Positions 49,846-54,900 of a stretch of 55,058 nucleotides of DNA are shown piece by piece (position 1 is the first letter of the stretch; every line of letters starts with the position of its first letter). The notes beneath the pieces were generated by a model. It saw only the letters and a list, made by a program, of their open reading frames with translations, was not told the DNA's origin and did no database searches. The stretch comes from Halococcus salsus (GTDB taxonomy: Archaea; Halobacteriota; Halobacteria; Halobacteriales; Halococcaceae): the NCBI RefSeq assembly GCF_009900715.1, contig NZ_JAAAJC010000002.1:417507-472564 (forward strand). The letters run 5' to 3'. The position numbers and the translations under genes are program-made.

Positions 49846-51408
49846 TTACGTCGCGCGCGGGCTGTCGAGGTCGATGTCGAGGTCCGCAAGAAGGTCCTCG
49901 GCCTCCGCGCGTTTCTCCTGGTGCTCTTCGAGGAACTCGCGCATCAACTCCGCGGCCTGCTCCTTGCAGCCACCACACAACCGTTCGCCGCCGGTGCACT
50001 CCTCATAGACCGTCGTCGCGAACTCGTCGTCGTCCGCGGCGAGGAGGTAGGCATAGAGTTCGTAGACGGGGCACTCGTCGGCCTTCCCGCCGAGTTCACG
50101 CTGTTTCTCGGCGGTCTCGCGCCCGCCGGTCGTGGCCGATTTCACTTTGTTGTACCCATCCTCGGGGTCGTCGAGCAGGCTGATGTGGCTCGCCGGGATG
50201 GACGAGGACATCTTGCCGCCCGTGAGGCCGGTCATGAAGCGATGGTAGATCGAGGACGGCGCGACGAAGCCGTAGCCGCCGTGGTCGAGTTCGACTTCGC
50301 TGGCGAGCGATTCGGCCTCGTCCCGCGAGAGATCGAAGCTGTCGATGTGGCCCTCGTAGACCCGTTTCTCGCCCTCGACGGCTTCGATGAGCGCCGAAAA
50401 GGCATCATCGGTCGCGTTGCGGTCGAGAAAGCGGGTTCGCGGGCGAAGGGGCTCCTTGCCGGCGGCCCGGAGCTTCTCGACCGTGTTATCGTGGACCGGG
50501 GAGCCGTCGGCGCGCTCGGCCAGCCAGTCGGCGGCCGCGATACACCGGACGGGGTCGTCCTCGTCGGATGTGGAGAGCGCCTCGAACGCCTCGGCGAGCA
50601 GCGCGCGTTCGGCGGGGTCGGCCTCAAAGCTCGCGTAGGCCTCCGTCACCCCGAAGTACCCCATTCGGGCCGCGAGGTCGCGCGAGAGCCGGACGTGTGG
50701 GTCCTGGTCCGGTCCCACAGGGATCACCGTTGGTTTCGGCTCGTCGAGTTGGGGATAGAGGATGTCCGCCATCTGGGTCACGACCGACTGCATGTGTGAG
50801 ACGTCGGTCTCGCCGCCGAAACCGTAGATGCTTTCGAGCTCCGAGAAGTTGGTCTCGATGCCGAGCTCGAACGCGAGGTCCTGGAGCGGACGGTTGTCCG
50901 ACTGCCGGTAGAGTTCGCCCGCCTCGGGGTCGAAGCCGAGCGCGATCAGGCTCAGGAGGTAGTCCCGCGCGTGCTCGTCGATCTCCGCCCACGAGAGCCC
51001 GCGGGCGCTGTGGGCTTCGAGGTCGGCGATGAGTCCATAGGTATCCGCGCCGCGCTCCTGATGCCAGATGAGTTCGTCGAAGACGAGTTTGTGGCCGATG
51101 TGCGGGTCGCCGGTCGGCATGAACCCCGAGAGCGCCGCGGCGGGGTCGTCGTTCCGCAACGCGTCGAGCACCCGTCCGTAGCCCCGATGGCCGAAGATGA
51201 CCCCGCGACGCATCAGGTAGTGCGGGGCGGGGACGCCGGGCAGCACGTCGTCGAAGGCCTCGATCCCGAACTCCTCGAAGAGGTTGCGGTAGTCCTCGAC
51301 CGTCGAGGAGCCCCACGGGTCGAGCGTCGTTCCGTCGGCTCCTGTGGCGGTTCCTCCATCGGGCCGAGGCCGGTCCGGCGCTCGTGCGTCGTGGTCTGGG
51401 TCTGTCAT
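49846..51408 (-). CDS. trpS: tryptophanyl-tRNA synthetase
   Basis: Class I synthetase that charges tRNA-Trp, 520 residues, archaeal/eukaryotic type. An acidic Pro-rich N-terminal tail (1-30) precedes the core with DPHIGHK (HIGH motif at 103-106) and GGKMSSSIP (KMSKS motif at about 399-403). Other landmarks are SGFMPTGDPHIGHKLVFDELI, FGGETDVSHMQSVV and VGPDQDPHVRLSRDLA. Its ATG overlaps the stop of endA by 4 bases, so the two are co-translated. The length over 500 residues and the tail are normal for haloarchaea. Pairing with EndA makes sense because haloarchaeal tRNA-Trp has an intron. Confidence 0.95.
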   Translation of the reverse strand: MTDPDHDARAPDRPRPDGGTATGADGTTLDPWGSSTVEDYRNLFEEFGIEAFDDVLPGVPAPHYLMRRGVIFGHRGYGRVLDALRNDDPAAALSGFMPTGDPHIGHKLVFDELIWHQERGADTYGLIADLEAHSARGLSWAEIDEHARDYLLSLIALGFDPEAGELYRQSDNRPLQDLAFELGIETNFSELESIYGFGGETDVSHMQSVVTQMADILYPQLDEPKPTVIPVGPDQDPHVRLSRDLAARMGYFGVTEAYASFEADPAERALLAEAFEALSTSDEDDPVRCIAAADWLAERADGSPVHDNTVEKLRAAGKEPLRPRTRFLDRNATDDAFSALIEAVEGEKRVYEGHIDSFDLSRDEAESLASEVELDHGGYGFVAPSSIYHRFMTGLTGGKMSSSIPASHISLLDDPEDGYNKVKSATTGGRETAEKQRELGGKADECPVYELYAYLLAADDDEFATTVYEECTGGERLCGGCKEQAAELMREFLEEHQEKRAEAEDLLADLDIDLDSPRAT

Positions 51409-52424
51409 GGGCGGATTCGCTCGACGGCGAGCCAGTCGATAGTATCGTTCGAGCCCGTCAGCGCAAAAACCGTTCGCTTGTGGACCCCACCCGCGAGCCG
51501 GGCGTCGAGCGAGAGTTCGCGCGGCCCGAACGCGTAGCCCGCCGGAAGCACCCGAACCAGGTTCTCGGAGTGCCCGAGGTTCTCGACCGTTTCGACCGTC
51601 GAGTAGGTTCGGAAGTCCGCCCCGAACTTGAAGCCTGTCTTGGGAACCAACCCCTTCGAACGAAGCGCCGCGTAGACCGCGAGCCGACGGTCGAACCGTT
51701 CGCCCTCGACCTCGCGCCCGCGCTCGACGACCGCGGCGGGCTCGACGTCGAGATCGAGGACTCCCTCGCGGGCGAGATAGGCGGCTTCGACCAGCGAGAG
51801 CTGGAGCGGCCCGCCCTCGGCCCCGCGACCCGCGAGGCGCTGGCCAAAGAAGCCGCGCTCGTAGAGGTCCTCCGGCGGGTCCCAGAGCACGACCCGGTCG
51901 GCGAGGATCTCGCCCGACGCACGCGAGGGATCGTAGTCGGTGCTCCCCTCGATGGTCGGACGACTCGTTTCGAGGTAGGTAATCTCGCTCTCCTCGTCGA
52001 CGACCGCGAGAACGACGTCACCGAGGTCGGTCGCCGGAACCGATTCGCGCTCGCCCGCCACCCGGATCCGATAGCGAACCTCGTCGTCCCACGGCCCCTT
52101 TCCCTGCGGGTAGACCACGAGGTCCGCGGCCGAACTGGGGTTCTCGACCCAGCCGTCGCGCGCGGGCGAGAGGTAGAACCCGCGCTCGCGGAAGTCCTTG
52201 TAGACCAGAAACCTGACCACGAGCCGGTCGTCCGTGGTGAGAAATTCCCGGAGTCCCATGCCATCGACCGTATCGAGGTCGTCGCGGTAGAGGAGGTGGG
52301 CGGCCTCGACCGGCGCGAGCGCGACCCCGGACCCGGTGGGCCGGCCGTAGCCCCGCGAGTCGTAGAACCGCTGGCGGGCGTCGCCGCCGGCGCGAACGAC
52401 GTCGCCATCGAGCGTGGCGTCCAT
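51405..52424 (-). CDS. endA: tRNA-splicing endonuclease EndA
   Basis: Cuts the bulge-helix-bulge of intron-containing tRNAs and of rRNA precursors. The 339-residue haloarchaeal form is a duplicated homodimer-type enzyme: an N-terminal catalytically dead half and a C-terminal half with the triad Tyr274 (FRTYSTV), His285 (LGHSENLV) and Lys316 (HKRTVF). FKFGADFRTYS and RFLVYKDFRERGFYLSPARD in the first half are typical of this alpha2 type. Its stop overlaps trpS by 4 bases, and the NucS-N/zinc-ribbon gene ends 63 bases upstream. Substrates for it, bulge-helix-bulge stems around 16S and 23S, lie in this window. Confidence 0.96.
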   Translation of the reverse strand: MDATLDGDVVRAGGDARQRFYDSRGYGRPTGSGVALAPVEAAHLLYRDDLDTVDGMGLREFLTTDDRLVVRFLVYKDFRERGFYLSPARDGWVENPSSAADLVVYPQGKGPWDDEVRYRIRVAGERESVPATDLGDVVLAVVDEESEITYLETSRPTIEGSTDYDPSRASGEILADRVVLWDPPEDLYERGFFGQRLAGRGAEGGPLQLSLVEAAYLAREGVLDLDVEPAAVVERGREVEGERFDRRLAVYAALRSKGLVPKTGFKFGADFRTYSTVETVENLGHSENLVRVLPAGYAFGPRELSLDARLAGGVHKRTVFALTGSNDTIDWLAVERIRP

Positions 52425-52487
52425 GGCCGAAACGGGCCGCGAGGCGACAAGTGGCCTGCGGTCGGGCGCGGCGGGAGGGGACGAACG

Positions 52488-53225
52488 TCAGCCGGCGCGC
52501 TCACAGGTCGCGTCGAGACACCGCCGGCCGCTGGCGGTCTCGAACGCCGGCAGCCCGCAGTCGCACTCGCCGTCGACGACACCCGTCGGGAAGGCGAACG
52601 CCGTCTCGCAGTCGGGGTAGTTCTCACAGCCGGCGAGAAGGTTGCCGTTCCGGATGATCCGGAGGCTCCCGTCACAGTCCGGACAATCCCAGGTCCGATC
52701 GAACGCCGCCGTGACCGCCGCGTCGAGCGACTGACACTCACGGTCGATACAGAGTGTGAGTTCCCGGCCGCGTTCGACGCGCATCGTCGGCAGGCCGCAC
52801 GACGGACAGGTTTCGTCGAGGATCTCGGCACCCGCGGGCAGCCCGTAGCGTGCCGCACAGTCGAGACACGTCACGGCACCGTTCGCGCGGGTGAGTACGC
52901 CGTCGCAATCGGGGCAGGTTCCCACGGGCGTCCCCGCGCGGGAGGCGGGATACCGCCCGAGGCCGTACTCCTCGTTCGCAGTGATGTCGAGCCGCGAGTC
53001 GTCGTCGACGGCGGTGAGCGAGAACGCTCCGTCAGCGGTTCCGTCGTAGACCAGGCTCTCGGGGCGCGTGAGCCACGCGACGGGCTGGTAGCCGTCGCGG
53101 TCGTGGACCAGCACGGTGTTGTCGGGTTTGAGGAGGACGACGACCTCGCCACGGAGGTCGCTCTCCCGGGAGCCCGTCGTGGTGACGGTGCAGTCGCCGG
53201 CGAAGACCCGGATAGCGTGGGGCAT
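52488..53225 (-). CDS. NucS N-terminal-like domain fused to four zinc ribbons
   Basis: A 245-residue protein. Residues about 4-60 (IRVFAGDCTVTTTGSRESDL, RGEVVVLLKPDNTVLVHDRD, GYQPVAWL) resemble the DNA-binding/dimerisation domain of endonuclease NucS (DUF91). The nuclease domain of NucS is missing. Instead there are four C4 zinc sites: Cys104/107/120/123, 140/143/159/164, 181/184/200/206 and 221/223/236/241. The last two resemble topoisomerase I C-terminal zinc fingers (CPDCDGSLRIIRNGNLLAGCENYPDC). So a nucleic-acid binder without obvious catalysis is likely. It stands between the LLM gene (25 bases) and endA (63 bases) on the same strand. Confidence 0.85.
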   Translation of the reverse strand: MPHAIRVFAGDCTVTTTGSRESDLRGEVVVLLKPDNTVLVHDRDGYQPVAWLTRPESLVYDGTADGAFSLTAVDDDSRLDITANEEYGLGRYPASRAGTPVGTCPDCDGVLTRANGAVTCLDCAARYGLPAGAEILDETCPSCGLPTMRVERGRELTLCIDRECQSLDAAVTAAFDRTWDCPDCDGSLRIIRNGNLLAGCENYPDCETAFAFPTGVVDGECDCGLPAFETASGRRCLDATCERAG

Positions 53226-53250
53226 ACGAGGGGTGGTCGCGTTCCCGTAC

Positions 53251-54171
53251 TTAAACTCGAACCCGCTCGATCACGCCGGCGAAGCGCGTCAACCAGCGCT
53301 CGGGGTCGTCGCCGACGCCGCCGACGAGGACGTGGTCGACCCCCTTCGATTCGAGGTTGCGGAAGTACTCGACGAACCACTCGCGCCCGGCGCGAAAGCC
53401 CTGATTGACGGGTTCGGGACCCGCTTCGGGGTCGTCGGCGATCTCGGCCGTGACGACCATCACGAACGGCTTTTGTCCACCCTGCTCGCGCCAGGTTTCG
53501 AGGTAGCTTTCGAGGGTGGCCTCGGGGAGGTGATAGAACAGCCAGCCGTCGCCGTGCGCACCGATCCACTCGACGGACTGGCGCGCGTTGCCGGTCGGGA
53601 GCAGCGGTATCGACCCCGCGACGGGCTTCGGCGTCACGTCGAGGTCGCCGTCGAGCACTCCCCACCGGGTCTCGCGTTCGGGGAACGACTCGCCCCACGC
53701 GGCGCGGAGGAGGTCGGTACCCTCCTGAAACAGCGCCGCGCGGTCGTCCGTGTCGACGTCGAAGGCGGCGAATTCGGGTGGGCGGTCACCGGTCGCGACG
53801 CCGAGCACCAGCCGTCCATCGGAAAGCCGGTCGACCGTCGCGGCGGACTTCGCGACGTGAAGCGGGTGTCTGAGGGTGAGGACGACGCTCGCGGTGCCGA
53901 GCGCGATGTCGTCCGTTCGGGCGGCGACCTGCCCGAGCCAGACCCACGGGTCGTAGGTCTGGCCCGCGTCGCGGAATTTCGGCCAATAGGTCGGGACGTC
54001 GCGCACCCAGAGCCCGTCGAAACCGAGCGCCTCGGCGCGTTCGGCGAGCGCGAGTTCGTCCGCGACCGGCGGAGCGGACTCGTTGACCCCGGTCAACGGA
54101 AAGCCGGTGCCGAAAGTGAGCCCGTCACCGGCGAAGAGCCGACGGAAGCCCGCGTTCTCGTGGGTGGCCAT
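53251..54171 (-). CDS. LLM-class luciferase-like oxidoreductase (BA3436-like)
   Basis: A 306-residue TIM-barrel flavin-dependent enzyme of the bacterial luciferase-like superfamily. LAERAEALGFDGLWVRDVPTYWPKFRDAGQTYDPWVWLGQ and ARTDDIALGTASVVLTLRHPLHVAKSAATVDRLSDGRLVLGVATGDRPPEF match the BA3436-type LLM proteins, and GNARQSVEWIGAHGDGWLFYHL is the F420/FMN-pocket side. LLM enzymes use FMN or F420, and haloarchaea make F420, so either is possible. ATG at 54171 is the natural start; longer frames extend past the HAD gene on the other strand. Its 3' end is 25 bases from the NucS-N/zinc-ribbon gene. Confidence 0.88.
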   Translation of the reverse strand: MATHENAGFRRLFAGDGLTFGTGFPLTGVNESAPPVADELALAERAEALGFDGLWVRDVPTYWPKFRDAGQTYDPWVWLGQVAARTDDIALGTASVVLTLRHPLHVAKSAATVDRLSDGRLVLGVATGDRPPEFAAFDVDTDDRAALFQEGTDLLRAAWGESFPERETRWGVLDGDLDVTPKPVAGSIPLLPTGNARQSVEWIGAHGDGWLFYHLPEATLESYLETWREQGGQKPFVMVVTAEIADDPEAGPEPVNQGFRAGREWFVEYFRNLESKGVDHVLVGGVGDDPERWLTRFAGVIERVRV

Positions 54172-54252: not shown

Positions 54253-54900
54253 ATGACCGAACTCCGCGCGGTGCTGTTCGACATGGACGGCGTCATCGTC
54301 GACTCCGAACGCTACTGGGCCGAGTACGAGGAGGAGCGGATCCTTCCCGCGGCGGAGGTCTCGGGGCTCGATCCCGGCGAGATCACCGGGATGAACTATA
54401 AGGAGATCGCCGAGTACCTCACCGAGAACTACGACGCGGCGGTCGGCACGGACGAACTCCAGGAGATCTACGAGGAGTGCGCCGCGGAGCTCTACACCGA
54501 ACGCGCCGACCTCATGGACGGCTTTCGCGACCTCTGTGGCACGCTCCGGGACCGCGGGGTTCGGACCGCGATCGTGACCTCCTCGCCGCCCGAGTGGATC
54601 GAGATGGTCCGCGAGCGCTTCGACCTCGCGGGCTTCGACGCGACGGTCTCGGCCGAGGTGATCGACGGCCCCGGCAAACCCGAGCCCCACATCTACCGCC
54701 ACGCTGCCGAGGCGGTGGGCGTCGACCCCGCCGACTGTGTCGCGGTCGAGGACTCGACCAACGGGGTCGCCTCGGCCACGGCCGCCGGGACGACCTGCAT
54801 CGGCTATCGCGGCGGGAGCGACCGGACCCTCGACCTCTCGGCGGCGGACGTGGTGGTCGATGGGCCGCAGGAACTCAGAGCCGAACTGCTAGCCCGATAA
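54253..54900 (+). CDS. HAD-family hydrolase (beta-phosphoglucomutase/phosphatase type)
   Basis: A 215-residue haloacid dehalogenase-superfamily protein with the four motifs: DMDGVIVDS (nucleophile Asp10, acid/base Asp12), VTSSP (motif II), Lys of PGKPEPHIY (motif III) and VEDSTNG (motif IV). The cap is a helical bundle (AEYEEERILPAAEVSGLD through CAAELYTERADLMDG), as in phosphoglycolate phosphatase and beta-phosphoglucomutase. It probably dephosphorylates a small sugar phosphate or metabolite. It is divergent from the LLM gene with 81 bases between. Confidence 0.9.
   Translation: MTELRAVLFDMDGVIVDSERYWAEYEEERILPAAEVSGLDPGEITGMNYKEIAEYLTENYDAAVGTDELQEIYEECAAELYTERADLMDGFRDLCGTLRDRGVRTAIVTSSPPEWIEMVRERFDLAGFDATVSAEVIDGPGKPEPHIYRHAAEAVGVDPADCVAVEDSTNGVASATAAGTTCIGYRGGSDRTLDLSAADVVVDGPQELRAELLAR

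Follow-up and report, generated by a model that had tools for sequence, protein, structure and literature searches.

A near-universal haloarchaeal protein with a NucS-type domain and four zinc ribbons is a probable detached accessory module of a Sec63-type Ski2 helicase

In NucS/EndoMS, an N-terminal domain (Pfam PF21003, NucS_N) is followed by a C-terminal RecB-like nuclease, and type IA topoisomerases carry C-terminal zinc ribbons (PF01396); NucS_N, topoisomerase-type ribbon and RecQ-type HRDC domains belong mostly to DNA-binding families. Small zinc-finger subunits with a nucleic-acid-binding domain serve the Sec63-type Ski2 helicases ASCC3 and Slh1: one study (PMC10076317) reports that TRIP4 docks on ASCC3 through its zinc finger, increases the affinity of the helicase for DNA and stimulates unwinding, and another (PMC9938168) that Rqt4 uses a zinc finger to pack against Slh1 on collided ribosomes. 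As for the tRNA splicing endonuclease EndA, a third report (PMC7714728) states that the Haloferax volcanii enzyme processes both pre-rRNA and pre-tRNA, that its gene (HVO_2952) is transcribed from a promoter of its own into a leaderless mRNA starting at the ATG, and that endA shares a bicistronic transcript with trpS1, for which additional promoters lie within endA.

The window analyzed here, a stretch of 55,058 nucleotides from Halococcus salsus, contains a gene for a 245-residue protein that joins a NucS_N domain to four zinc ribbons (hereafter ZNC; the helicase discussed with it is designated HEL). The gene, its parts and its surroundings are as follows.

49846..51408, minus strand: trpS (993 bits), with a 4-base overlap with endA
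51405..52424, minus strand: endA, tRNA splicing endonuclease (NCBIfam, 527 bits), the kept downstream neighbor of ZNC
52488..53225, minus strand: ZNC, gene of the NucS_N and four-zinc-ribbon protein, 245 aa, ATG start (open reading frame and domain searches)
52491..52934, minus strand: four-zinc-ribbon module, ZNC residues 98-245 (conservation; collinear, 41% identical helicase-fused module in loci L149-L152)
Within that module, C4 sites at C104/107/120/123, C140/143/159/164, C181/184/200/206 and C221/223/236/241
52938..53225, minus strand: NucS/EndoMS-type N-terminal PH-like domain, ZNC residues 1-96 (PF21003; VIA-align; conservation)
53247..53255, minus strand: TATA-like element TTTAAGTAC, about 30 bases before the ZNC ATG and overlapping the LLM stop codon
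53251..54171, minus strand: luciferase-like monooxygenase (LLM; PF00296), a local insertion outside the conserved neighborhood
54253..54900, plus strand: HAD-family hydrolase, a conserved neighbor, elsewhere in haloarchaea often between HEL and ZNC

The geometry given in a first-pass annotation of this DNA was reproduced on re-measurement, with 63 bases between ZNC and endA, 25 bases between LLM (open reading frame end at 53251) and ZNC, and the 4-base overlap of endA and trpS. Matches to ZNC at E<=1e-10 are present in 285 of 292 Halobacteria genomes, each at least 90% complete and mostly with a single match, so that the observation is not due to chance; ZNC is close to a core gene of haloarchaea and is strongly constrained. 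The viral contigs searched gave no match, and in the openly licensed literature we found neither a study of ZNC or HEL nor a paper matching HVO_2953-2956, the range near which (close to HVO_2953) the H. volcanii ZNC would be expected from its position beside endA (HVO_2952). One genome (G010) carries a ZNC cut to a 36-aa in-frame remnant, in which ~12 residues from the start and ~25 from the end meet at a GDC repeat (L027:1501-1611; L181:7301-7381), with endA intact beside it and HEL kept; the remnant may reflect a real internal deletion or an error of assembly.

The N-terminal half of ZNC has the fold and signature of NucS/EndoMS. Pfam places NucS_N on residues 4-84 (32.9 bits vs. a cut-off of 23.9), and residues 1-96 of the AlphaFold model (pLDDT 87) match the EndoMS/NucS structures 5gke (VIA-align Z 11.9, rmsd 2.6, 94 aa) and 2vld (Z 11.8, rmsd 1.9, 90 aa), the next-best fold reaching Z 6.7; it was this fold comparison that decided the assignment, the sequence search of the PDB with whole ZNC giving NucS at E 0.04-0.11 only. 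The 12 Pfam matches of ZNC include no nuclease domain, and the NucS equivalogs match no more than residues 6-84, so that where NucS/EndoMS has its nuclease, ZNC has zinc ribbons (residues 98-245). The earlier proposal of a NucS-type domain without nuclease, for which a structural match of residues 1-90 was the suggested check, is thus borne out. Nine positions (K33, D35, T37, H41, G45, P48, W51, T53 and R54) are invariant in all 116 distinct orthologs, and the KPD..T...H...P..W face that they outline is presumably the one that NucS uses around DNA; the ZNC positions aligned with two arginines that we take to be DNA contacts in Pyrococcus abyssi NucS hold other residues.

Nevertheless, the alignment suggests that this domain is not simply a NucS that has lost its nuclease, since the deletion of one residue and an [LM]-x-R-A motif (with one exception, M-G-Q-A in row L164) are common to ZNC and the helicase-linked NucS_N domains described below and are absent from all 11 NucS rows. 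The tree of NucS_N domains falls into three groups and is unrooted, so it does not tell which two are sisters, and the shared deletion and motif are used alone. Several NucS-like branches occur in haloarchaea (L169-L179), some genomes having two, and one of these branches (L172, L175 and L177) has a diverged signature.

In the C-terminal half, each cysteine of ribbons 2-4 is kept in 115-116 of the 116 distinct orthologs, and ribbon 1 is decaying and partly lost (C107 in 95/116). Ribbon 3 (residues 180-209) matches Zn_ribbon_Top1 (PF01396) just above the Pfam cut-off (32.3 vs. 32), and ribbons 2 and 4 have a CGLP pattern in common. The module predicted alone (pLDDT 92) has topoisomerases in its best three VIA-align rows, at low Z (4.3-4.6), and no Foldseek match at E<=0.001, low scores that indicate neither a new nor an old fold. 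ZNC thus resembles the C-terminal ribbons of type IA topoisomerases in its third ribbon and in its top structural matches, and differs from them in the low scores, the CGLP pattern of ribbons 2 and 4 and the lack of an attached topoisomerase. The four zinc sites annotated earlier stand; the ribbon that passes the topoisomerase cut-off is the third, the earlier annotation having named the last as topoisomerase-like.

A search of 246 genomes of the phylum with the ZNC family profile revealed that the two halves occur separately as parts of helicases. In four genomes of one non-haloarchaeal genus (g87 of family f18; G309, G318, G327 and G335, loci L149-L152), the four-ribbon module forms the C-terminus of a HEL of ~980 aa (profile search, E 1e-36 to 1e-38); it is collinear with the ZNC module (41% identity over 144 aa), and a domain search on L152 found in the open reading frame the DEAD, Helicase_C and Sec63 domains of a Ski2-type helicase. 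In two genomes of family f25 (G325 and G334), the NucS_N half lies inside frames of 997 and 1022 aa (E 2e-11 and 2e-10), in the order HEL, NucS_N (above the Pfam cut-off, residues 812-887 and 812-893) and HRDC, the helicase being 47-48% identical to the f18 HEL core. The H. salsus HEL (771 aa) is 43% identical to both fusion partners, up to residues ~738 and ~771, and both fusions start just beyond its end; thus, each ZNC half is elsewhere a C-terminal extension of HEL. Neither a full HEL-NucS_N-ribbon fusion nor a fusion of ZNC parts to EndA was found in this search. At the f18 loci L149-L152, an XPB-Bax1 repair pair adjoins the fusion in opposite orientation, and endA lies divergent on the other side.

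Stand-alone NucS_N-HRDC proteins are present in two f25 genomes that lack HEL (G316 and G342; L165:250-1086, with a NucS_N match just below the Pfam cut-off, and L185:8213-9052), so that such modules can have other partners; G325 and G316 are, we assume, Methanocella species. In these Methanocella-like fusions and stand-alone proteins HRDC follows NucS_N where haloarchaea have ribbons, and no HRDC is among the Pfam matches of ZNC.

Among solved structures, HEL is closest to ASCC3, Slh1 and human Brr2 (E 1.8e-154 to 3e-149); for Hel308, E is ~3e-63. Per cassette, it scores 248 and 269 bits against ASCC3 vs. 217-221 bits against Hel308, and since the ASCC3 score adds two cassettes, its real per-cassette lead over Hel308 is small. 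Its domain content fits a Sec63-domain Ski2 helicase related to ASCC3, Slh1 and Brr2, the assignment being carried by the Sec63 (PF02889) and Brr2-type winged-helix (PF23445, SNRNP200_wHTH) domains, both above cut-off and placed after the RecA pair. HEL differs from these relatives in having one helicase cassette (in 771-777 aa) and not two. The f18 HEL does not pass the Hel308 equivalog (250 bits, cut-off 1200), and in most haloarchaea checked, a second and weaker match, separate from HEL, is consistent with Hel308. The H. salsus gene (L168:2282-4594, contig C5) appears to be the local copy of a near-universal one-cassette haloarchaeal helicase of this type, distinct from Hel308. A defense role was considered and rejected: PADLOC has no match for ZNC, and its matches for HEL (HamB and others, up to 170 bits) were read as generic helicase matches.

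Within Halobacteria, the distribution of ZNC is nested in that of HEL, which is present in 290 of the 292 genomes. Both genes occur in 285 genomes, HEL without ZNC in five (G020, G026, G202, G205 and G308), neither in two (G025 and G027) and ZNC without HEL in none (Fisher p 0.0005); when 15 further, partly incomplete genomes are included, the corresponding numbers are 289, 9, 9 and 0. The count leaves out G016 and G029, where ZNC is present and HEL was not measured. Shared ancestry and incomplete genomes make the p values an overstatement, and the useful part is the direction, i.e., that none of the 289 carriers has ZNC without HEL. Most genomes without HEL are incomplete, and there is kinship among some of them, so that the co-absence does not amount to many independent events; the nine genomes with HEL alone indicate that HEL can do without ZNC.

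The gene neighborhood was compared in 70 loci (L051-L120), the best of 80 taken from 142 relatives, the weak matches L121-L130, which involve mainly the ribbon part (E 1e-8 to 1e-10), being left out, and two short contigs with little downstream sequence (L112 and L115) and four loci with less than 3 kb upstream being counted as misses. Among these 70, endA lies downstream of ZNC on the same strand in 57, usually with trpS next, and 44 have HEL upstream, likewise on the strand of ZNC. A control over the 62 listed loci of at least 15 kb gave endA in 51, trpS in 45, HEL in 43, pheS in 36, a HAD hydrolase in 31 (on the opposite strand every time), an FAD oxidoreductase in 2, and LLM and GH114 in none. 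These counts outline an old block of HEL, HAD (reversed), ZNC, endA, trpS and pheS, into which LLM is a local insertion, adjoining ZNC only in H. salsus and its sister genome G007. The gap between HEL and ZNC is below 250 bases in just 10 of the 44 listed loci with HEL upstream, and the HAD gene lies between them in 22 of these 44; an operon of HEL and ZNC as a general rule was therefore rejected. In G007, HEL is located ~4.2 kb upstream of ZNC on a single contig; in H. salsus, HEL is near the start of contig C5 (2282-4594, minus strand) and the window reaches the end of C2, so that a layout like that of G007 is probable.

Sequence signals upstream of ZNC fit a promoter of its own and a leaderless start: over 107 distinct upstream regions, the AT content has a sharp peak of 0.86 at -30..-26, and 82 of the 107 contain TATA-like words. 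Upstream of endA, the peak is weaker (0.55) and TATA-like words are found in 11 of 98 regions. Conserved words (GACCGCAG...CTTGTCG) lie just 5' of endA across several Halococcus loci (window 52425-52484) and are perhaps its weak promoter. An operon running from LLM through ZNC and endA to trpS was dropped, given LLM in 0 of 62 listed loci and the promoter evidence for ZNC and endA. The unit with endA and trpS, as annotated earlier, holds as an old and widespread adjacency that extends beyond the genus (57/70 listed loci), and is weakened as a transcription unit by the TATA-like element of ZNC and the endA promoter of H. volcanii; LLM belongs neither to that unit nor to the conserved order.

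We infer that ZNC is a detached C-terminal accessory module or subunit of HEL, and give this reading a probability of roughly two in three. Because each half is fused to HEL in two other archaeal groups, ZNC looks like a separated helicase tail, and it is supported as such by the separate fusions of both halves, by the lack of any ZNC without HEL and by the proximity of the two genes in most loci examined. The linkage alone is weak, as pheS (36/62) and HAD (31/62) are also conserved neighbors in the listed loci. It is the fusions that point to HEL as a better partner for ZNC than endA and trpS.

The partnership suggested earlier, in which ZNC would act as an RNA-processing factor with EndA (and TrpS) in tRNA or rRNA maturation, draws on the position of endA as the closest gene conserved downstream of ZNC (57/70 listed loci), on the processing of both RNA classes by H. 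volcanii EndA and on the f18 loci, where endA stands divergent beside the helicase-ribbon fusion, so that the link to endA may predate Halobacteria. Yet ZNC has a promoter-like element of its own, as does endA in H. volcanii (leaderless; PMC7714728), and 11 listed loci with long flanks, mostly from Halorubrum, have ZNC with no endA within 8 kb downstream. With domain types that are mostly DNA-binding, fusions that lead to HEL and none found to EndA, a role in tRNA or rRNA processing is not supported and, as stated, is quite unlikely.

Alternatively, ZNC could be a DNA-repair factor of NucS/EndoMS origin that acts alone or with PCNA or NucS and binds DNA at mismatches or branches but leaves it uncut. 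This reading would account for the NucS_N fold with its KPD-x-[ST]...H...P-x-W signature (W invariant in 116/116 orthologs), for the topoisomerase-type ribbons and for the XPB-Bax1 pair next to the f18 fusion. It is at odds with the replacement in the ZNC alignment of the two arginines taken as DNA contacts in P. abyssi NucS and with the two features by which the ZNC domain resembles helicase-fused domains and not NucS, and it leaves the HEL fusions unexplained; we consider it unlikely. That ZNC is an ordinary zinc-ribbon chaperone of RNA or DNA, its fusion and linkage to HEL being accidents of gene shuffling, seems highly improbable: zinc ribbons do shuffle easily, and related ones occur in open reading frames of ~830-970 aa that resemble topoisomerase I C-termini (named by frame size and topoisomerase profiles), but two fusions have brought two different halves of ZNC to the same end of HEL, and no carrier of ZNC lacks HEL.

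If ZNC is indeed an accessory subunit of HEL, the helicase would be the motor, which the separate ZNC would join in a complex, offering two surfaces for gripping nucleic acid, the NucS_N domain and the tandem ribbons. By holding single-stranded or branched nucleic acid at HEL, ZNC could load the helicase or keep it engaged; it might load it on single strands or junctions, or else keep the displaced strand. The domain types and the XPB-Bax1 neighbors in f18 speak for DNA, the endA/trpS neighborhood and the kinship with Brr2 and Slh1 for RNA, and we lean slightly toward DNA since the NucS_N, topoisomerase-type ribbon and HRDC families are mostly DNA-binding.

The way in which a small zinc-finger subunit serves ASCC3 or Slh1 is proposed likewise for ZNC and HEL, and ZNC, although not a homolog of TRIP4, may act on HEL in the way that TRIP4 acts on ASCC3. 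TRIP4 and Rqt4 have a C2HC5 finger and an ASCH domain, neither of which is among the Pfam matches of ZNC at E<=1; the likeness is one of working and not of membership, and work on ribosomes is a candidate role only. A more specific version would make HEL and ZNC the archaeal counterpart of ASCC3-TRIP4 and Slh1-Rqt4, a one-cassette motor whose loading subunit is the zinc-ribbon protein and whose targets in haloarchaea would be stalled ribosomes or blocked nucleic acid; this version is tentative and, on balance, unlikely. If true, it would make the pair a simple ancestor or analog of the helicase complex that splits ribosomes and serves alkylation repair in eukaryotes.

Overall, NucS_N emerges as a module reused in several combinations, with a nuclease, zinc ribbons, HRDC or a helicase, and the pair of HEL and ZNC is present in almost every haloarchaeal genome examined. 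If the predicted complex forms, a near-universal gene would gain a testable role, and haloarchaea would provide a genetically tractable, one-cassette model of the Brr2/ASCC3 class of helicases.
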